Shown here: one piece after another, positions 1 to 25,538 of the stretch | How positions within the stretch are numbered: the first letter of the stretch is position 1 | Layout of the letters: each line of letters opens with the position of its first letter | Virus record (IMG/VR): IMGVR_UViG_3300032296_001480 | Coordinates: 1-30,324 of that record | DNA length: 30,324 bases | DNA from: a virus | Direction: 5' to 3' (one strand) | The notes under the pieces: model-generated | Told to the model about the DNA's origin: nothing | Database searches by the model: none | What the model saw: the letters and a program-made list of their open reading frames with translations, nothing else | Program-made: the position numbers and the translations under genes

Positions 1-351
1 ATGCTCATGTCAGAGACGCCTGACTCAACAGATACTGAGGCGCTGCGCCTGATGGCAATAACAGCAGCTGTCCATGCCAAGATGGCTAAGTCAAGCATCA
101 AAGAGGCTATACTCAAACCAAGGGCTTTCTCCGGAGTAAACAGAGAGTCATATATTTGGTGGAGAGCAGAGCCTACATCTATACACAAGCAGATAGCCAT
201 AGATATTGTCAATAATGGCATAAAAAAAAGCGACCCGAAAATATATGCCTTCTGCAATATGAGCATCATAGCTCCAAAAACAAAAGCATGGTTCAATACG
301 CTGAAGTTCTATAAAAAAATCGGTGAGGTAACATTTTTCTTATTACCATAA
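1..351 (+). CDS. SleB-like cell wall hydrolase, probably 5' truncated by the window edge
   Basis: The 116 visible residues resemble the Hydrolase_2 (SleB/CwlJ) family of peptidoglycan-cleaving enzymes. The motif PRAFSGVNRE (residues 42-51) sits where the family has its 'pgqFs' signature. The segment AIDIVNNGIKKSDPKIYAFCN and the end WFNTLKFYKKIGEVTFF match the family's C-terminal layout, which ends in a G-H/x-xF segment. The family's catalytic glutamate lies near the N terminus, in a region like the visible MSET. The reading frame is open from base 1, so the true start is probably upstream. It would act on the host wall at lysis or entry. The gene is 10 bases from the GroES-like gene. Family assignment is from motif memory and is moderately sure. 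Confidence 0.55.
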   Translation: MLMSETPDSTDTEALRLMAITAAVHAKMAKSSIKEAILKPRAFSGVNRESYIWWRAEPTSIHKQIAIDIVNNGIKKSDPKIYAFCNMSIIAPKTKAWFNTLKFYKKIGEVTFFLLP

Positions 352-361
352 ATCTAATTCA

Positions 362-619
362 ATGCAACCAATAGGAAAGTATATAGTGGTCTCCGCTATT
401 GACGAGGAGATAAAGACAGACTCAGGCATCATCCTTTCAGGAGAAGATGCGAGTCAATTCAGATACAAAAAAGGCAAAGTAATCAAGCCAGGTACTGACG
501 TGACAGTAATAAAAGAGGGCGATGTTATTTATTACGATAAGGGACATTCGTTCACAATGATCATAAAGAACGAACAGTATACAATCATTAGGGAGTCCGA
601 CGTCGTTCTTGTTGAATAG
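362..619 (+). CDS. GroES-like co-chaperonin (Cpn10)
   Basis: This 85-residue protein follows the GroES fold order. It has an N-terminal strand (KYIVVSAIDEEIKTDSG) and the mobile-loop GroEL-binding tripeptide pattern G-I-I-L at residues 22-25. It then has KGKVI, IKEGDVIYYDKGH and a terminal strand ending IIRESDVVLVE. It is shorter than bacterial GroES (about 97 residues), with the loss in the roof-hairpin region, as in phage T4 gp31. By analogy it would cap host GroEL to help fold phage proteins such as the capsid protein. No GroEL gene is in the window, so the host chaperonin is the expected partner. Its last 32 bases overlap the convergent minus-strand gene. Confidence 0.85.
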   Translation: MQPIGKYIVVSAIDEEIKTDSGIILSGEDASQFRYKKGKVIKPGTDVTVIKEGDVIYYDKGHSFTMIIKNEQYTIIRESDVVLVE

Positions 620-1028
620 ATTTATTCATTTCAATAATCATATTCTTATAAACCTTATCGGTATACCTGACCTTTCGCTTAAACATTGGGTTGTTGCAGA
701 CAGTCATTGGTATGTCGTCACCATTTAGCTTGCGGTAAATGTCTTTAACGACCAATTTACTCTTGTCGCTCATTTGGTAAATAATCCTTTTGTTCCCTTC
801 TTTTGGTCTGAATACCTCAAACCACCCCTCACGGAGCAGGCGGTTGAATCTTTCTTTGTCCCAAGACAAGATTTTATCATACCTATCGAATTTTGCTCTG
901 GTAAAATAGCCTTCAGAGTACATAAAAAGCAGAACATCGAGGTCAGCTTGGAAAAGACCAAACTTTGACTTGTAATACTGGCGTATAACTTTCCAATATT
1001 TGAGATAATTGATAGGTGTTTTTCGCAT
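588..1028 (-). CDS. Winged-helix DNA-binding protein (MarR-like layout)
   Basis: This 146-residue protein is the only convincing minus-strand gene. Residues about 24-100 show a winged-helix arrangement. First comes a helix with ADLDVLLFMYSEGYFTR, then a candidate recognition helix SWDKERFNRLLREGW. A beta wing follows (FEVFRPKEGNKRIIYQMS), then a helix KLVVKDIYRKL. This is the layout of MarR-type and related replication/regulatory wHTH proteins. The C terminus is basic (QQERRRTP). A TATCTTTG promoter-like motif lies 26 bases upstream of its ATG, back to back with the promoter of the 1109 gene, so it may repress one or both. The target and exact family are unknown. It overlaps the end of the GroES-like gene tail to tail. 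Confidence 0.7.
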   Translation of the reverse strand: MRKTPINYLKYWKVIRQYYKSKFGLFQADLDVLLFMYSEGYFTRAKFDRYDKILSWDKERFNRLLREGWFEVFRPKEGNKRIIYQMSDKSKLVVKDIYRKLNGDDIPMTVCNNPMFKRKVRYTDKVYKNMIIEMNKSIQQERRRTP

Positions 1029-1054: not shown

Positions 1055-1062
1055 CAAAGATA
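1055..1062 (-). promoter_or_regulatory. Putative -7 promoter element TATCTTTG
   Basis: The minus strand reads TATCTTTG, matching the Bacteroidota sigma-70 -7 consensus TAnnTTTG, 26 bases before the ATG of the winged-helix gene. No clear -33 TTG is visible. The position in an 80-base divergent gap supports a promoter. Confidence 0.5.
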
Positions 1063-1077
1063 ATCAGAAATTCTTAT

Positions 1078-1085
1078 TATATTTG
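1078..1085 (+). promoter_or_regulatory. Putative -7 promoter element TATATTTG
   Basis: TATATTTG matches TAnnTTTG and ends 23 bases before the ATG at 1109. The same spacing range (20-26 bases) occurs at 6410 and 13684. It probably drives the small-gene operon starting at 1109. No -33 TTG was found. Confidence 0.6.
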
Positions 1086-1108: not shown

Positions 1109-1369
1109 ATGGCAAAAGACAAAACCCCAAAAAAAGAGGAAAAAGCTGAAAGCAAAAGCTATGAATATCAGAAAATTGACCTTAAAACAGGGCTTAATGA
1201 TATTGCTTTCAAGAATAAACAGGTTGAAATGATAAGAAACCTGCAAGAAGAGAACTTAAAGCTAAAGCAGAGTGCAGGTAGACAGAGAAGGCAGGCAGGA
1301 ATGCCAGATATAAGGGGGCTTCGTGGATTAGAGGGTGATCTTGGAATGCAGTTTAAGAAAAAAGGCTAA
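1109..1369 (+). CDS. Small charged protein of unknown function
   Basis: An 86-residue protein I do not recognise. It has a lysine/glutamate-rich start (MAKDKTPKKEEKAESK). A probable coiled-coil helix around residues 35-55 contains QVEMIRNLQEENLKLKQ. It ends in a glycine/arginine-rich tail (GRQRRQAGMPDIRGLRG). It is the first gene after a good promoter-like motif and heads a run of very small genes. The basic tail could bind nucleic acid or an acidic partner, but nothing visible settles this. The ATG is the only in-frame start close to the promoter. Confidence 0.65.
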   Translation: MAKDKTPKKEEKAESKSYEYQKIDLKTGLNDIAFKNKQVEMIRNLQEENLKLKQSAGRQRRQAGMPDIRGLRGLEGDLGMQFKKKG

Positions 1370-1395
1370 TATTTATCACAATAAATCAGTTTTTC

Positions 1396-1551
1396 ATGAA
1401 AAAGTCAACTCCTAACCTCCCAATGTCATCTCGTTTGCAAGCTCCAGGTGGCGCTAAAGAGATGCCAAAGGCTATGCCTAAAAAAGGCGCTACCAAAAAG
1501 GTAACTGCCGGTGCAGCAAAGAAGGCAATGCCTGCTAAAAAGGGATACTAA
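1396..1551 (+). CDS. Tiny lysine/alanine/proline-rich basic protein (51 aa)
   Basis: An open frame of 51 residues from ATG 1396 to TAA 1549-1551. Its stop shares one base with the ATG of the next gene (TAATG), which supports it being real and translationally coupled. The sequence is dominated by Lys, Ala, Pro and Gly, with repeated AMPKKG/AMPAKKG-type words (for example KEMPKAMPKKGATKK). This composition resembles histone H1-like or other disordered DNA-binding tails. A DNA-condensing or virion role is only inference. There is no detectable fold and it is probably disordered. Confidence 0.6.
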   Translation: MKKSTPNLPMSSRLQAPGGAKEMPKAMPKKGATKKVTAGAAKKAMPAKKGY

Positions 1552-1814
1552 TGAAAATCGACAGCCAAAAGTATATGGGCGAGAATCAGTTGGTCAACAG
1601 ACTGGCATCGCAGGTAGGATCCATGAAATTGGCTGTCGGTATTCTTAAAAAAAGGGGTGATATGACAGCAGATGGAAAGCTAACAGAGAAAGGGAAGAGG
1701 CGCAATGCGATGACAGCAGAAGAAAGAGCAAAAGACAGAGCTGCAAAATCATCAAAACGCAGTCCATCAGAATATAAATACAATCCATTTACAAACAGAG
1801 CAACTTTAAAATAA
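1551..1814 (+). CDS. Small basic protein of unknown function
   Basis: An 87-residue, strongly basic protein coupled to its upstream neighbour by a one-base stop/start overlap. The N-terminal half (QLVNRLASQVGSMKLAVGIL) is likely a helix. The rest is rich in Lys, Arg and Ala with MTADGKLTEKGKRRNAMTAE and KDRAAKSSKRSPSEYKYNP. The phrase MTA-x-G/E occurs twice within it, and MTASELKAKK in the 2261 gene is similar. I recall comparable short proteins in uncultured aquatic phages but know no function. It is part of the small-gene operon. Confidence 0.65.
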   Translation: MKIDSQKYMGENQLVNRLASQVGSMKLAVGILKKRGDMTADGKLTEKGKRRNAMTAEERAKDRAAKSSKRSPSEYKYNPFTNRATLK

Positions 1815-1815
1815 C

Positions 1816-1971
1816 ATGGCAAAGACTAAAAAAATCGAGGAAGCTGTCGAGGAAGTACAAGTTGAAGAAACAGTTGAAGAAACTGTTGTAGTTGAAGAAA
1901 CTCCAAAGATTCAACAAAACGAAGATGGTATCACAGACAGAGCATACACAAGCCAAAAATATAAGAAGTAA
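1816..1971 (+). CDS. Tiny acidic protein (51 aa)
   Basis: An open frame from ATG 1816 to TAA 1969-1971, one base after the previous stop and sharing one base with the next ATG. That spacing fits the surrounding operon. The middle is a run of Glu/Val repeats (EEAVEEVQVEETVEETVVVEE), flanked by a basic start (MAKTKK) and end (SQKYKK). It is opposite in charge to its neighbours, so it could pair with or mask the basic small proteins. That is inference only. It is probably disordered or a single helix. Confidence 0.55.
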   Translation: MAKTKKIEEAVEEVQVEETVEETVVVEETPKIQQNEDGITDRAYTSQKYKK

Positions 1972-2261
1972 TGGCCGATAAATCCAAAATGAGCTGCAAT
2001 AAACCGGTGTCATCAGACAGAGCCGGAAAGAAAATGATGGTCAAAGCTTGCGCCAATGGCCAGGAAAAACTATTGCATTTTGGAGCAAAAGGTTATGGGC
2101 ATAATTATTCATCAGCCGCACGCAAAAGTTTTAAAGCAAGGCACTCTTGCGATACAGCTGACGATAAGCTAACGCCAAGATACTGGGCTTGTAAGAAACT
2201 ATGGGCTGGACCTGGTGGCAGCACCGCAAGTAATCCTAAAGGACGACAAGGTAAATACTAA
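1971..2261 (+). CDS. Conserved cysteine-containing basic phage protein
   Basis: A 96-residue basic protein with four cysteines (C9, C27, C60, C73). The core has the words HFGAKGYGHNYS, ARKSFKARHSCD and PRYWACKKLWAG. I recall this RKSFxARHxCD...ARYWxCKKxW pattern from T4-like marine phages and other uncultured viruses, where the function is unknown. The Cys/His pattern could bind a metal such as zinc. It shares single bases with both neighbouring genes (TAATG junctions) and is directly followed by a DUF5872-like gene. Confidence 0.7.
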   Translation: MADKSKMSCNKPVSSDRAGKKMMVKACANGQEKLLHFGAKGYGHNYSSAARKSFKARHSCDTADDKLTPRYWACKKLWAGPGGSTASNPKGRQGKY

Positions 2262-2596
2262 TGAAAGACTCCTGCTATAAAAAAGTCAAAGCACAGTACG
2301 ATGTATTCCCATCAGCAAGAGCGTCACAAGCAATAGCTAAGTGCCGCAAAGCAAGTGGCAATGTGGTGAAGTCAGAGAAGGGTACAAGCCTAAAGAGATG
2401 GGAGAAAGAGAACTGGGTTGACACAAGAACAAATAAACCTTGCGGTGCAGGAGGAAAGAACGAGTACTGCCGTCCTACAAAAAAGATTTCATCACAGACA
2501 CCTAAGACCAAAGGCGAGATGACAGCATCAGAGCTAAAAGCTAAGAAAGCTGAGAAGTCAAGAGTTGGTATGGGTAACAAAATATCAAAAGCATGA
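2261..2596 (+). CDS. DUF5872-like cysteine-containing protein
   Basis: A 111-residue basic protein. The N-terminal part DSCYKKVKAQYDVFPSARAS followed by AIAKCRKA matches a short Cys motif I know from phage and plant/algal virus proteins. The middle LKRWEKENWVDTRTNKPCG, then YCRPTKK and SSQTPKT, matches my memory of the DUF5872 consensus (KLxRWxKExWVDxxTGKPCG...CRPxKRVSxKTPKT). Function is unknown. Paired cysteines suggest a small metal-binding or disulfide-linked protein. It ends in an ATGA overlap with the 54-residue gene. The lysine-rich C-terminal tail contains MTASELKAKK. Confidence 0.7.
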   Translation: MKDSCYKKVKAQYDVFPSARASQAIAKCRKASGNVVKSEKGTSLKRWEKENWVDTRTNKPCGAGGKNEYCRPTKKISSQTPKTKGEMTASELKAKKAEKSRVGMGNKISKA

Positions 2597-2757
2597 GCAA
2601 GAGCAAAGGACTCGGTGATACTGTAGAGAAGATAATGAAAGCCACAGGCGTAAAGGCAGCTGTCAAGACAGTAACAAAAGCTGTTGGCGTAGAGGACTGC
2701 GGTTGCGACAAGCGAAGAGATACATTAAACAGAATATTTCCATACGATAAAAAATAA
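2593..2757 (+). CDS. Small protein with CGC motif and TLNRIFPY end (54 aa)
   Basis: An open frame of 54 residues beginning in an ATGA overlap with the previous gene and ending 3 bases before the next ATG. Its layout is GLGDTVEKIMKATGVKAA, then VEDCGCDKRRDTLN and FPYDKK. I recall very similar short proteins (GLGDTxxKxTKATGI...DCGCDKRxxxLNxLFPY) in many Bacteroidota phages and prophages, always of unknown role and near structural genes. The CxC pair may bind metal. The conserved order of words makes it a confident gene despite its length. Confidence 0.7.
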   Translation: MSKSKGLGDTVEKIMKATGVKAAVKTVTKAVGVEDCGCDKRRDTLNRIFPYDKK

Positions 2758-2760
2758 AAA

Positions 2761-3258
2761 ATGGCAAACGTAAGAATACAACCAAGCAGAGCGCTGACAG
2801 TTATTAAGTCAGACGATGCTGATATACCATATCCGGCAATAGCTGTATCAGGTGTTGATGATACCGTCCCTTTAGGCAATCAACTTATTGACAGCACAAA
2901 AGACTTTATAGCATTGCAAATATATCCTGGCAACATTGTATACAACACATCAGTATCTCCTCCTTTAGCAGCTACTGTTGTGTCATTATCTCCATCTTCT
3001 CCTGATACGCTTACTCTTAACGCTCCGATATTTACAGGTGCCGGTGACAGCTATATAATCTATCAGTCAAGTCCAATGGCAGGTGGTCAAAACACAGGCT
3101 GTGTGCTTTATGTAGGTACAGGTGGTGATGTAACAGTTACAACAGCAGGTAATGATTATGTTACATTTGTAAATGTGCAAAATGGGTCATTTTTGCCAGT
3201 TCAAGTGGTAAAGGTTTGGAATGCAGGAACATCAGCTGACATATTAGCCCTTTGGTAA
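2761..3258 (+). CDS. Small virion structural protein, beta-rich
   Basis: A 165-residue beta-rich protein. Residues 40-104 (from NQLIDSTKDF to YIIYQSS) form a domain that recurs in the ring protein at 17144, where NQLIDS is also present. The C-terminal 55 residues (GCVLYVGTGGDVTVTTAG to LPVQVVKVW and LALW) match a widespread head/tail decoration or GTA spike-base-like module (LYVGxxGDVxVxT...FLPVQVxKV) in my memory. It is directly followed by the fiber gene at 3259, which suggests a base or adaptor for that fiber. It is probably a virion component; its exact position is unknown. Confidence 0.6.
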   Translation: MANVRIQPSRALTVIKSDDADIPYPAIAVSGVDDTVPLGNQLIDSTKDFIALQIYPGNIVYNTSVSPPLAATVVSLSPSSPDTLTLNAPIFTGAGDSYIIYQSSPMAGGQNTGCVLYVGTGGDVTVTTAGNDYVTFVNVQNGSFLPVQVVKVWNAGTSADILALW

Positions 3259-4623
3259 ATGCTAACAGTAACAATCACAAACACATTGATGTCAAAGACA
3301 ACAACTGCTGGAGGAGGTGGTGGAACGTCCCCAGTAAATACTGTTGCTCCGGTTATTTCAGGAAGTGGGATTATTAGCTATCCTCTTTCGTGCGCAGATG
3401 GCACATGGACAGGAACTCCTGTAATAACATACACTTATCAATGGAAAAGAAACGGAATAGATATTGTAGGCGAAACCAATTCTACCTACATTTTAGATAA
3501 TGCAGACTATGGTAATGCTATTACTTGCGAAGTAACAGGGACAAATGCCTTTGGCTTTTCAAGTGCGGTCAGTAATACAATAACAGGAACTGCAATAGCT
3601 CCTGTTAACACAGTTGCGCCTGTTATTGCAGGAACAAATGTCGTCGGCTCAACATTGACAACAACAAAAGGAACATGGACAGTAGATCCATCTCCATTGT
3701 ATACCTATCAATGGTATAGAGGTGCATCCCCAATATCAGGCGCAACTTCAGATAATTACACTCTCGTTCAGGCAGATGCAGCCCAGTCAATAACTTGTGT
3801 CGTGACAGCAACAAATGTAGCTGGAACGGCAAGCGCAACAAGCAATGCCCTTACAATTATTGACGCGGACGCACAGGCATTTTTCACGGCAAGTGGCTTA
3901 ACAGGTGCGACAAACTTAACAGCTATTAACAATTTAGTTGTTGCGCTGAAAGGTTACGGCATTTGGACAAAGATGAAGGCTATCTATCCGTTTGTAGGAG
4001 GTACTGCTGCTTTGCATAAATGGAATCTAAAAGACCCACAAGATACAAATGCTGCGTTTAGGCTTGTTTTTGCAGGGGGATGGACTCACGCAAGTACAGG
4101 CGCAAAGCCAAACGGTGTAAATGCTTATGCTGATACATTTTTAACACCAAGTACAAGTTTATTACAAAACAGTACACATATTTCATATTATAGTAGAACA
4201 CAAAGTAATAACACAGAAGTTGAAATTGGGTCTTCAACTGGATTAAATGCAACAGACAACAAAGCTTTATTAGAAATTAGAACAAGCGGAGTTACTTATT
4301 ATAATATAAATGGTCAAAGTACATACATTACTTATTCTGATGCAGATAGTAGAGCTTTTTATATTGGAAATCGTACTGCATCAAATGTAGTAAATGGTTG
4401 GAGAAATAGTACAAAAGTTGCAACAGGAACAACTGCAAGTACTGGATTAAGTACAAGAACTTTTTATTTAGGAGCTTTTGGTTCACAAGCCGCAGGACAA
4501 TTTTTTTCTACAAAAGAATGCGCTTTTAGTTCCATTGGTGATGGACTAACAGATACTGAAGCAGCAAGTTTTTATACAGCCGTTCAAGCATATAACACAA
4601 ATTTAGGGAGGAACAATCCATGA
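3259..4623 (+). CDS. Fiber/adhesin with two Ig-like domains and a LamG-like end
   Basis: A 454-residue protein. After a Gly-rich linker (residues 17-23) come two tandem Ig-like domains at about 25-110 and 115-200. Both open with PVNTVAPVI, have TYQW and TYTYQWKRNG-type strands, and close with ITCEVTGTN or ITCVVTATN. Residues 205-454 contain FFTASGLTGATNLTAIN, IWTKMKAIYPFVGGTA, HKWNLKDP and GVNAYADT. I know this set from LamG/concanavalin-like ends of Bacteroidota phage proteins. Such modules bind carbohydrate, so a role in host attachment is likely. The start immediately follows the previous stop. From about 4140 the coding DNA is more AT-rich than upstream. Confidence 0.7.
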   Translation: MLTVTITNTLMSKTTTAGGGGGTSPVNTVAPVISGSGIISYPLSCADGTWTGTPVITYTYQWKRNGIDIVGETNSTYILDNADYGNAITCEVTGTNAFGFSSAVSNTITGTAIAPVNTVAPVIAGTNVVGSTLTTTKGTWTVDPSPLYTYQWYRGASPISGATSDNYTLVQADAAQSITCVVTATNVAGTASATSNALTIIDADAQAFFTASGLTGATNLTAINNLVVALKGYGIWTKMKAIYPFVGGTAALHKWNLKDPQDTNAAFRLVFAGGWTHASTGAKPNGVNAYADTFLTPSTSLLQNSTHISYYSRTQSNNTEVEIGSSTGLNATDNKALLEIRTSGVTYYNINGQSTYITYSDADSRAFYIGNRTASNVVNGWRNSTKVATGTTASTGLSTRTFYLGAFGSQAAGQFFSTKECAFSSIGDGLTDTEAASFYTAVQAYNTNLGRNNP

Positions 4624-6409: not shown

Positions 6410-6417
6410 TATATTTG
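6410..6417 (+). promoter_or_regulatory. Putative -7 promoter element TATATTTG
   Basis: TATATTTG lies in the 38-base gap between the holin-like gene and the ATG at 6443, with 25 bases to the ATG. It matches TAnnTTTG and would start transcription of the tail fiber and packaging genes. No -33 TTG is obvious. Confidence 0.55.
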
Positions 6418-6442: not shown

Positions 6443-6667
6443 ATGACTTACGTTTCAAAAGAAGAACTCGACAAAATTCAAGGCATGAATGCCGATTTCG
6501 CTAAAGCCAAAATGGCACTCGGTGAACTTGAACTAAACAAGCAAGGAATACTAAGCAGAATAAATGCTATGCAGCAGGAGTTCCTTGAATACGAGAAGAT
6601 GCTTATAGTAAAATATGGACAAGACTCAGTAATAAATTTACAAACCGGAGAAGTAACTAAAAAATAA
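6443..6667 (+). CDS. Small coiled-coil protein
   Basis: A 74-residue protein that looks like two antiparallel helices (LDKIQGMNADFAKAKMALGE and ILSRINAMQQEFLEYEKML). A short end follows with KYGQDSVINLQTGEVTKK. I recall similar small proteins, always ending in KYG-x-x-x-INLxTGE, in many Bacteroidota phages; function is unknown. It is the first gene after a promoter-like motif and lies one base before the tail fiber gene. A role as a fiber chaperone or virion part is possible but not shown. Confidence 0.65.
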   Translation: MTYVSKEELDKIQGMNADFAKAKMALGELELNKQGILSRINAMQQEFLEYEKMLIVKYGQDSVINLQTGEVTKK

Positions 6668-13683: not shown

Positions 13684-13691
13684 TATTTTTG
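13684..13691 (+). promoter_or_regulatory. Putative -7 promoter element TATTTTTG
   Basis: TATTTTTG matches TAnnTTTG and ends 20 bases before the scaffold ATG at 13712, in the 50-base gap after the portal gene. It could give extra transcription of scaffold and capsid genes, which are needed in large amounts. There is no -33 TTG. Confidence 0.55.
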
Positions 13692-14810: not shown

Positions 14811-16271
14811 ATGCCAAGTGCTTTATTAAACACGCCTACTTATGCGCTGCAACCAGCAGCCGAGAGAATGGCTTTATCAACAAACTATATTACTAACTTC
14901 GACTTCTTGAATCAGTATCTTCCTGATACTTACGAGAAAGAATTTGAGCGTTACGGTAATCGTACAATTGCATCGTTCCTTCGTCTTGTAGGTGCTGAGA
15001 TGCCTTCAAACTCTGACCAAATCAAATGGGCTGAACAAGGTCGTTTGCATATCAAGTACACGAATGTTGTGGCATCAGCTGTTGCAGCTGGTGTTGGTAC
15101 ATTTACAATTACTGCTGGCCCTACATCCGGTATAACATCAACAGCTATTAGAGTAAACCAAACTGTATTCATTCAAGTGAATGCTACAGGCGTTTACAAT
15201 AAAGCTATTGTTACAGCTATTACAAGCCCTACTGGTGGTCCTTACACTTTTACAGTTGCATTCTATGAAGCAACAGTAGTTATTGCAAATGCAGATGTTT
15301 GCACTGTATTTATCTACGGTTCTGAATTCAAGAAGGGGACAACCGGTATGGTGGGGTCTTTGGAATCAGAGGATGTATTTTTCTCTAACAAACCAATTAT
15401 CCTAAAAGATAGATATGCTATCAGCGGATCTGATATGGCTCAAATTGGTTGGGTTGAAGTAACAACTGAGAATGGTGCTACTGGCTACCTTTGGTACCTA
15501 AAGTCCGAGCATGAGACTCGTCTTCGTTTTGAGGACTATATGGAGACTGCTATGATTGAAGCTGTTCCTGCCGCTGCTGGTTCTGGTGCTGCTAACTTCT
15601 TGGCAACAGGTCTTGCTAATGAGGCAGGTTCTGAGGGCGTATTCTACGCTGTTGAGAATCGTGGTAATGTATGGGGTGGTGGTGTGCCAACATCTCTTGC
15701 TGATTGGGATACAATCGTACAGCGTCTTGACAAACAAGGTGCTATTGAGGAGAACGTAGTATTCTGTAACCGTGACCTTAGCTTTGCCATTGATGGTATG
15801 CTTGCAGGTCTTAACGGTGCTTCTACTGCTGCTGCCGCTACTCCTTCATACGGTGCTTCATACGGTCTATTTGACAATGACGTAACTATGGCTTTGAACC
15901 TTGGTTTCTCAGGTTTCCGTCGTGGTTATGACTTCTATAAGTCAGACTGGAAATACTTGAATGACCCAACTATGCGTGGTGGTCTTTCAGCTGCTGCTGC
16001 AACTGCTACTGGAACAATAACAGGTCTTTTAGTTCCTGCCGGTTCTACTTCAGTTTACGACCAAATCATGGGCAAAAACGCTAAGCGTCCATTCCTACAC
16101 GTCCGTTACCGTGCAACTGAAACAGAAGATCGTCGTTACAAAACTTGGATTACAGGTTCTGCTGGCGGTGCGCAAACAAGTGACTTAGATGCAATGGAAG
16201 TAAACTTCCTTTCTGAGCGTTGCGTATGTACTCTTGGTGCAAACAACTTTGTACTCTTTAGATACGGTTAA
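14811..16271 (+). CDS. Major capsid protein (HK97-fold, crAss-like type)
   Basis: A 486-residue protein. The N-terminal signature TNFDFLNQYLPDTYEKEFER followed by YGNRTIASFL, and MPSNSDQIKWAEQGRLH, is what I recall for capsid proteins of Bacteroidota podoviruses. A beta-rich insertion at about residues 87-172 (VASAVAAGVGTFTITAGP to VFIYGSEF) interrupts the core and may be a surface domain. The end (LDAMEVNFLSERCVCTLGAN) is the typical closing strand. Codons are unusually rich in CGT, GGT and GCT compared with neighbouring genes, as expected for the most highly expressed protein. It is followed by a strong terminator, which would favour a discrete abundant transcript. Confidence 0.8.
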   Translation: MPSALLNTPTYALQPAAERMALSTNYITNFDFLNQYLPDTYEKEFERYGNRTIASFLRLVGAEMPSNSDQIKWAEQGRLHIKYTNVVASAVAAGVGTFTITAGPTSGITSTAIRVNQTVFIQVNATGVYNKAIVTAITSPTGGPYTFTVAFYEATVVIANADVCTVFIYGSEFKKGTTGMVGSLESEDVFFSNKPIILKDRYAISGSDMAQIGWVEVTTENGATGYLWYLKSEHETRLRFEDYMETAMIEAVPAAAGSGAANFLATGLANEAGSEGVFYAVENRGNVWGGGVPTSLADWDTIVQRLDKQGAIEENVVFCNRDLSFAIDGMLAGLNGASTAAAATPSYGASYGLFDNDVTMALNLGFSGFRRGYDFYKSDWKYLNDPTMRGGLSAAAATATGTITGLLVPAGSTSVYDQIMGKNAKRPFLHVRYRATETEDRRYKTWITGSAGGAQTSDLDAMEVNFLSERCVCTLGANNFVLFRYG

Positions 16272-17093: not shown

Positions 17094-17123
17094 AAAGAGG
17101 GTGAAATATTCCCTCTTTTTTTT
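17094..17123 (+). terminator. Rho-independent terminator
   Basis: AAAGAGGG (17094-17101) pairs with CCCTCTTT (17111-17118) across a 9-base loop, and an eight-T run (17116-17123) follows. It would end transcription after the gene at 16339. Its T-run is continuous with the next promoter-like motif. Confidence 0.8.
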
Positions 17124-17130
17124 ATATTTG
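17123..17130 (+). promoter_or_regulatory. Putative -7 promoter element TATATTTG fused to the terminator
   Basis: TATATTTG begins at the last T of the terminator run and ends 13 bases before the ATG at 17144. It matches TAnnTTTG. It would restart transcription for the neck and tail genes. Confidence 0.6.
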
Positions 17131-24702: not shown

Positions 24703-25533
24703 ATGCCAGCAACAAACGGTGAGTTTAAAACACTTACATACAGCGAAGCAGTAGCCGGATGGCCTTCGTTTTATTCTTATAATCCTGACTGGATGATAGG
24801 AATGAACCAATACTTTTACACCTTCAAAGGTGGCAATCTGTACCGGCACAATGTCAATTCGCTCAAGAACACATTTTACCAACCTTGGTGGACACTAATA
24901 GGTGACACAGCAGGAGCATTTACGCCATCAAAAATGCACAGTGTATTCAATACCGTTCCGCTTGAGAATAAGCTATTTAAGACACTAAACATTGAGGGTG
25001 ATGCAGCATGGGGCGCTGAGCTATTGACAGACATACAACAAAGCGGCTATATCTTACAGCCATGGTTCGAGAAGAAAGAGCAGTCATTCTTTGCCTTTGT
25101 CAGGAACAACAGCATAGGCGAGCTGCCAATACGCAGCACTAATGGTATCGGTGCCAGCTACCAGATAAATATAGCAGGAGATACTATTGACTTCTCAATT
25201 ACACCACTTGTTGACCTTGGCACAATAATGAGCATAGGTGACTACTTGTACTTTATGGTACCACCTACTCCATCGCCAATGTTTTTAGCCGGAGAGATAA
25301 CGCAAATTAACAGGAACTATAAGCTTGGTATAAACCAAATAGTTATAGACACAACTATTCCTGGCACAACTCCAATCACTATTCCTAATGCTTATTTCTT
25401 CTATACCAAGAACTCAGTAGCTGAGTCGCATGGTGTACTTGGGCATTATTGTGAGTTTATTTTAGAAAATAGTTCAACAAGCAAAATAGAATTATTTGCA
25501 GTAGAGTCTGAAGTTATGAAATCTTTTCCATAA
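24703..25533 (+). CDS. Tail protein related to the stabilization/muzzle C-terminal region
   Basis: A 276-residue beta-rich protein. GWPSFYSYNPDWMIGMNQYF, then YTFKGGNLYRHN and HSVFNTVPLENKLFKTL with IEGDAAWGAEL, is a set I know from the C-terminal part of P22 gp10-like stabilization proteins in crAss-like phages (SFxPDWMxGxNxxFYTFKxGxLYxHN). Here the region stands as its own gene, so the muzzle function is split over two or three proteins, or this is a separate plug/tip protein. It ends with a beta domain (GVLGHYCEFILENSSTSKIE). It lies 9 bases before the acetyltransferase gene. Confidence 0.6.
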   Translation: MPATNGEFKTLTYSEAVAGWPSFYSYNPDWMIGMNQYFYTFKGGNLYRHNVNSLKNTFYQPWWTLIGDTAGAFTPSKMHSVFNTVPLENKLFKTLNIEGDAAWGAELLTDIQQSGYILQPWFEKKEQSFFAFVRNNSIGELPIRSTNGIGASYQINIAGDTIDFSITPLVDLGTIMSIGDYLYFMVPPTPSPMFLAGEITQINRNYKLGINQIVIDTTIPGTTPITIPNAYFFYTKNSVAESHGVLGHYCEFILENSSTSKIELFAVESEVMKSFP

Positions 25534-25538
25534 TTTTG
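25531..25538 (+). promoter_or_regulatory. Weak promoter-like motif TAATTTTG before the acetyltransferase
   Basis: TAATTTTG matches TAnnTTTG but overlaps the previous stop codon and lies only four bases before the ATG at 25543. A transcript from it would be nearly leaderless. It may be chance in AT-rich DNA. Confidence 0.2.

Follow-up and report, generated by a model that had tools for sequence, protein, structure and literature searches.

Phage T4 has small, basic internal proteins that differ from one relative to the next and bind DNA when salt is low (PMC9026906), and the internal proteins of T-even phages are packaged and in part injected (PMC9026906; PMC12373910). A second point of reference is the domain DUF5754, also called Tlr6F (PMC4642659; PMC12220804), which is described as conserved in polinton-like viruses almost without exception, and also in several virophages, many giant viruses and a number of phages, and which resembles no domain of known structure or function (PMC4642659). 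In the present work we observed the gene structure, promoter, selection, conserved core, charge and homologies of a cassette of seven small genes at positions 1109-2757 of the virus record IMGVR_UViG_3300032296_001480 and, in other phages, domain fusions to head proteins. The window is the whole stretch of 30,324 bases analysed, and all coordinates are positions in it. The families involved were known already; the cassette as a hypervariable set with a conserved core we did not find described in the literature that was searchable. Comparison with relatives establishes that the cluster is a modular, hypervariable slot rather than a fixed heptad. Like the T-even internal proteins (IPI, IPII and IPIII), its products are small, basic, variable between close relatives and grouped with head functions, and by this analogy we put the chance at slightly under even that they are late, head-associated accessory proteins that bind or accompany DNA.

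The seven genes encode proteins of 51-111 residues (P1 to P7), share one strand and are preceded by a Bacteroidota-type promoter:

1109..1369, + strand: P1, 86 residues, basic (isoelectric point, pI, 9.8), of no known family.
1396..1551, + strand: P2, 51 residues, histone H1-like (pI 10.7), with the N-terminal motif PNLPMSSRLQAP and a Lys/Ala/Pro tail.
1551..1814, + strand: P3, 87 residues, basic (pI 10.3), with the motif MTAEERAKDRAAK...YNPFTN.
1816..1971, + strand: P4, 51 residues, an acidic Glu/Val peptide (pI 4.6), directly 5' of P5.
1971..2261, + strand: P5, 96 residues with four Cys, assigned to the DUF5754/Tlr6F superfamily, a core gene; matches phrog_220.
2261..2596, + strand: P6, 111 residues with four Cys, DUF5872 (Pfam PF19197), a core gene.
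2593..2757, + strand: P7, 54 residues, GLGDTVEKI...DCGCDKRRDTLNRIFPY, a core gene; phrog_32048 at E 5.6e-7.

A sequence-only reading of this DNA had described seven genes of this size, joined mostly by TAATG or ATGA overlaps and strictly coupled, and the frames are indeed present at these coordinates. Four of the six junctions overlap, with TAATG at P2/P3, P4/P5 and P5/P6 and ATGA at P6/P7, whereas a single base separates P3 from P4 and 26 bases separate P1 from P2. The genes are therefore mostly overlapping but not strictly coupled. The alternation of basic, acidic and cysteine-rich products that had been described is likewise absent, since six proteins are basic (pI 9.6-10.7), P4 alone is acidic and cysteines are limited to P5, P6 and P7.

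The same reading had named a lack of purifying selection in the 51-residue frames as a result that would speak against the cluster. In pairwise comparisons with the three closest relatives (L002, L004 and L014), made where the synonymous rate dS could be estimated, the ratio of nonsynonymous to synonymous rates (dN/dS) was 0.02-0.39 for the seven genes, with values of 0.04-0.09 for P2, 0.03-0.09 for P4 and about 0.1 for P1 against L002 and L014. All seven genes, both 51-residue frames included, are under purifying selection, and the low values of P2 and P4 therefore identify these frames as real genes. Against the same relatives dS was 1.4-2.2 for P5 and 0.25-0.33 for P6 (0.25-0.47 for P6 and P7 together). 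This contrast suggests recent recombinational exchange inside the cassette, and the low values look as if P6 and P7 had been swapped recently as a block.

Loci of relatives were gathered by similarity to P5 and P6, which biases the sample towards loci having these genes; a second, separate set fetched by TerL is free of that bias and holds 10 loci with the entire slot visible. We took the slot to run from the antisense regulator-like gene R146 to the tail-fibre-related gene P8 and compared 95 distinct cassettes, in which open reading frames (ORFs), called mechanically and some possibly spurious, number 3-14 per slot (median 7). P5 and P7 are each present in 91 of the 95 and P6 in 80, and those present always follow one another as P5-P6-P7: all three in 74 cassettes, P5-P7 in 13 and P6-P7 in four. 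Outside this set there are exceptions to the order, with P6 ahead of P5 in L081, L346, L347, L348 and L351. All ten TerL-seeded loci contain P5 and P7, six contain P6 and seven a P2-type peptide; one has a P5 match downstream of P8.

Turnover dominates the remainder of the slot. The window forms of P1, P3 and P4 were found in only 27, 26 and 3 of the 95 cassettes, other tiny basic genes replacing or separating them; the position of P3 shifts between cassettes, and P1 belongs to a loose cluster of 87 ORFs made up of N-terminal cassette genes. Extra small ORFs in the slot amount to 380 distinct mechanical calls, some of which may be spurious, and 297 of these have a pI above 9. The proposal that the genes work as a set, perhaps to be abandoned if the families proved scattered with no conserved order, thus survives in part: the gene-neighbourhood survey shows conserved co-occurrence, in one order, for P5, P6, P7 and the H1-like P2-type peptides, but not for the window forms of P1, P3 and P4. 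Searches of P1 and P3 by tblastn against 50,697 phage records gave no match, so these two are known only from uncultured relatives. Homologues in genome collections lie on contigs of metagenome-assembled genomes that mostly carry the same phage genes and are apparently mis-binned, and they are therefore uninformative on cellular function. In many relatives, for instance L008, L011, L022, L052 and L055, an acidic protein of 133-145 residues (cluster C5, 20 members) lies between P6 and P7.

The window cassette has a net charge of +65, and the net charge is positive in all 95 cassettes (median +77, range +24 to +191), with 638 of 734 cassette ORFs above pI 9. Among the 34 genes tabulated, no window gene outside the cassette exceeds pI 8.9, and the late genes there are nearly all acidic or neutral. 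P2-type peptides, present in 63 of the 95 cassettes, combine a constant N-terminal motif, PNLPASSKLxxP, with a variable Lys/Ala/Gly/Met tail such as AIKGAIKGAVKGAMKGAMKGAMKK. They share with the Hc1-like H1 proteins of phages and Chlamydia (PF07432) a short length and a richness in Lys, Ala, Pro and Gly. Unlike Hc1, however, P2 has a motif of its own and matched no Pfam family at E up to 10, Hc1 included, nor was Hc1 matched for three relatives, a weak test for such low-complexity sequence. P3 gave a match under the cut-off to wHTH-PRTase_assc (PF24409; E 0.0013, 19.2 bits, cut-off 27). In 38 of the 95 cassettes the place of P4, directly before P5, is taken by a peptide of no more than 65 residues that is acidic or neutral. 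An NCBIfam search of P1-P7 returned no informative match, and a C-terminal Tyr signature, when tested, was weak.

P5 matches phrog_220, 'minor head protein and DNA pilot', at E 2.3e-15. Against DUF5754 (PF19058) it scores 17.3 bits, below the Pfam cut-off of 27.4, whereas the protein elemo66 of a Flavobacterium elemo phage, 47% identical to P5, scores 44 bits, and the P5 relatives in L267 (46.2 bits) and L254 (58.9 bits) pass as well. Elemo66 occupies the equivalent place, between GroEL/GroES and a P8 homologue, and is matched by a profile of P5 orthologues at E 7.5e-29. Because its own score lies under the cut-off, we term P5 a superfamily relative and not a Pfam member; it belongs to a four-Cys, aquatic-phage branch of the DUF5754/Tlr6F superfamily.

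The same profile detects the P5 domain inside larger head proteins. Gp12 of Aphanizomenon phage CL131 is a fusion of Phage_portal_3, P5, InPase and Phage_Mu_F (E 1e-18), the Peptidase_S78_2 capsid protease phiA019_104 of an Aeromonas phage carries the domain (E 4.6e-11), and in Vibrio phage ICP1 it stands beside Peptidase_S78_2 in gp125, annotated as capsid protease (E 5e-5). The two proteases are about 64% identical. In these proteins the P5-type domain is inserted or C-terminal, whereas the window P5 stands alone, with no protease domain; a Pfam search found no Peptidase_S78_2 match in P5, and what the two share is the added domain only. A homologue of the Aeromonas protease in L331 runs from a ChaB-like N-terminal segment directly into the protease, with no P5 insert. 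In Aeromonas and related phages the P5/Tlr6F-type domain is thus an optional insert between the ChaB-like segment and the S78_2 protease (L163:3752-4642, L331:4900-5700). MuF proteins form part of the head, and fusions with InPase are predicted to be packaged (PMC5512222). That other phages have the P5 domain within their head proteins points towards a place inside the capsid.

An AlphaFold2 model of P5 (pLDDT 74) has a beta hairpin and two helices. In the viral library BFVD it matched ICP1 ORF125 (E 6.5e-5), a ChaB protein, an XkdF protein and a 1393-residue protein (the length of CL131 gp12), as well as a protein of the giant virus Tunisvirus (E 1.8e-3); these matches are not fully independent of sequence, because Foldseek also uses it. 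Sequence and fold searches of the PDB gave no credible relative. A match of P5 to a 'structural protein' of Salmonella phage ST-3 (E 0.2) was judged to be chance. For Tlr6F, the fusions to capsid protease and to portal-MuF single out the head interior as the place to look, and the flavophage cassettes carry it as a small protein on its own; these phages have cultured relatives, the elemo phages grown on Flavobacterium sp. BAL314.

The sequence-only reading had also called the product of 2261-2596 DUF5872-like, and the profile search agrees: P6 matches PF19197 at 51.9 bits (E 1.4e-13, cut-off 27.5) over model positions 7-112 of 116. The Prochlorococcus podovirus P-SCSP2 has a separate gene for the C-terminal half of DUF5872, situated between the scaffold and major capsid protein (MCP) genes (Pfam 53.3 bits), and in T4-like cyanophages the N-terminal half lies inside a larger protein with DUF6321. 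By comparison, P6 covers nearly the full model in a single short gene that is joined to those of P5 and P7. S-SCSM1_29 contains the N-terminal half, has fibre and TerL genes as neighbours and bears the label 'virion protein'; the S-SCSM1 genome paper lists 45 virion proteins identified by mass spectrometry (PMC9602691). A sequence search of P6 against the PDB gave no credible relative, and its structure model (pLDDT 59) is too poor for use.

The suggestion that DUF5872 extends to large DNA viruses of algae was correct, in that the algal giant virus CpV-BQ1 is annotated with both DUF5872 and DUF5754, at separate places (PMC12085832). The 'odd spread' is thus real for two of the seven families, since both of these domains occur in giant viruses too. 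In other marine contigs, P5 relatives occur alongside further cassette families: C10, C24 and C16 in L267 and some of these in L269, L270, L284, L286, L304 and L315, and C11 stands beside P5 in 13 loci. C24 is DUF5872-like at 22.4 bits, below the cut-off. Besides P5, the other window genes tested had no match in the 4 kb flanks of these contigs. L267 carries four adjacent tiny basic genes at 3110-4144 (one of C10 type, two C24 pieces and P5) near an amidase gene, a second and apparently independent cluster of the same families.

If the T-even analogy holds, the products of the cassette would be made late, at the same time as those of the head and lysis genes, as the position of the cassette suggests, and would enter the assembling head and be packaged with the DNA. 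The H1-like P2, like the basic tails, would act on DNA by binding or condensing it; P5 would serve as a head-interior module with P6 and P7 as conserved partners, and the members that turn over quickly would be accessories that may reach the host along with the DNA. We favour this T-even-type reading because position, charge, turnover and the P5 fusions fit it. A head association is further suggested by the DUF5872 halves near scaffold and MCP in P-SCSP2 and in the S-SCSM1_29 protein labelled 'virion protein', and by the frequency of P2-type peptides. Among the roles proposed for the cluster before, DNA condensation or a part in the virion is accordingly what we retain as the best account, with packaging and DNA binding as presumed steps.

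Host takeover, another of those roles, would make the cassette an unpackaged set directed at the host or its defences; it might include an H1/Hc1-like peptide acting to compact or silence the nucleoid of the host, or proteins that inhibit its nucleases. Arms-race loci typically show hypervariability and exchange of genes, H1-like proteins are known from phages, Hc1 represses synthesis in E. coli (PMC12619734) and type IV restriction is inhibited by Ip1-3, internal proteins of T4 (PMC12373910). However, the cassette lies in the late structural and lysis block instead of an early region, the P5 domain is fused to capsid protease and portal, and P2 matched no Pfam family, Hc1 included; we regard this explanation as unlikely. 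A further reading is that of transient head-assembly factors, such as scaffold or protease helpers that are gone from the mature virion. In its favour, the S78_2 capsid protease may or may not include a P5 domain, P-SCSP2 has a P6-like gene with scaffold on one side and MCP on the other, and GroES is a neighbour. Such factors leave the H1-like peptides, the strong positive charge and the turnover unexplained, and the P6-type module is labelled 'virion protein' in S-SCSM1, so that we rate them as somewhat less likely still.

The turnover itself could mean that there is no common function, the slot being a permissive one that collects unrelated small late genes, each with a role of its own. P1, P3 and P4 each occur in a minority of relatives and positions shift, and the mosaic dS of P5 and P6 against the same relatives agrees with this. 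Yet the positive charge bias extends to 95 of 95 cassettes, P5 and P7 are near universal, and P5 clusters again with C10, C24, C11 and C16 in other marine phages, and we hold this to be no more probable than transient assembly factors. Accessories to tail, fibre or lysis, co-expressed with P8 and the endolysin and serving for instance in surface decoration, are brought to mind by the fibre gene directly downstream of the cassette, by the adjacency of P5 and peptidase M15A genes in HTVC106P and by the amidase near the P5 cluster of L267. The fusion partners of P5 are nevertheless head proteins and not tail proteins, P5 is near terminase genes in CRP-3, and the P6-like gene of P-SCSP2 is beside the scaffold gene, all of which makes such accessories very improbable.

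Several observations weigh against packaged, DNA-associated proteins of the T-even type. The likeness to T-even internal proteins is one of properties, and the single dense operon with its conserved P5-P6-P7 core differs from that system. T4 internal proteins share an N-terminal capsid-targeting sequence, whereas among P1-P7 we saw no shared leader: only 2-6 residues match between N-termini (a comparison made with no shuffle control), which also differ by eye. Neither proteomic nor expression data were found for this phage clade, a literature search for an elemo virion proteome found none, and the elemo-phage homologue of P5 is annotated as hypothetical, not structural. The partial genome of Maribacter phage Panino, a more distant relative, has no match to P1-P8, and the set may therefore not be needed to build such heads. 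Late timing is deduced from map position, the 'virion protein' label of S-SCSM1_29 is only presumed to reflect mass spectrometry, and in proteases and portals the P5 domain might mediate contacts unconnected with DNA.

If it is true that the set is packaged, it would represent a modular, protamine-like kit of virion proteins in common freshwater and marine phages. More speculatively, and with rather less confidence, Tlr6F/DUF5754 may be a capsid-interior module that forms, with DUF5872, the DCGC protein and the H1-like peptides, a 'virion chromatin' kit with exchangeable parts, its genes coming from a pool common to unrelated aquatic viruses of bacteria and algae.

The window is the late half of a Bacteroidota podovirus that infects aquatic bacteria and is related to the Flavobacterium elemo phages. 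Its MCP (14811-16271) is 66% identical to that of Podoviridae sp. ctfjg026 (MW202828), 48.5% to that of Panino and 45% to those of elemo phages, and its portal is P22-like (Pfam E 4.6e-8). The gene order is GroES, R146 (antisense), the cassette, P8, lysis genes, TerL, portal, MCP and downstream virion genes, and the place of the cassette, with GroES on one side and the fibre/lysis/TerL/portal/MCP block on the other on one strand, is kept across about 130 loci. The features that border the cassette are:

362..619, + strand: GroES-like co-chaperonin (Pfam Cpn10, E 2.8e-12), the landmark upstream of the cassette.
588..1028, - strand: R146, antisense and regulator-like, the left border (phrog_17028, E 1.5e-6; phrog_12817 transcriptional regulator, E 0.02).
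1055..1062, - strand: TATCTTTG, probable divergent promoter element of R146, from a pattern search (position only).
1078..1085, + strand: TATATTTG, -7 element of the cassette promoter.
2761..3258, + strand: P8, 165 residues, tail-fibre-related, the right border (phrog_12296 tail fiber, E 4e-7).

The R146 homologue in MW202828 is annotated as a repressor, and P8 is the next recognised gene after the cassette in most relatives. Upstream of GroES, the first frame of the window (1-351), which may extend beyond it, has a weak match under the cut-off to the cell wall hydrolase family Hydrolase_2 (Pfam E 2.7e-4).

The promoter-like motif reported ahead of the cluster is well founded. The consensus of the Bacteroidota -7 promoter element is TAnnTTTG, which TATATTTG fits, and the pattern is present in 67 of 73 distinct homologous intergenic regions; 61 of the regions have it within their last 110 bases, against about four expected from shuffled sequence. 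Further TAnnTTTG elements at 6410-6417, 13684-13691, 17123-17130 and 25531-25538 lie directly upstream of the genes at 6443, 13712, 17144 and 25543, and are possibly additional promoters of the late region.

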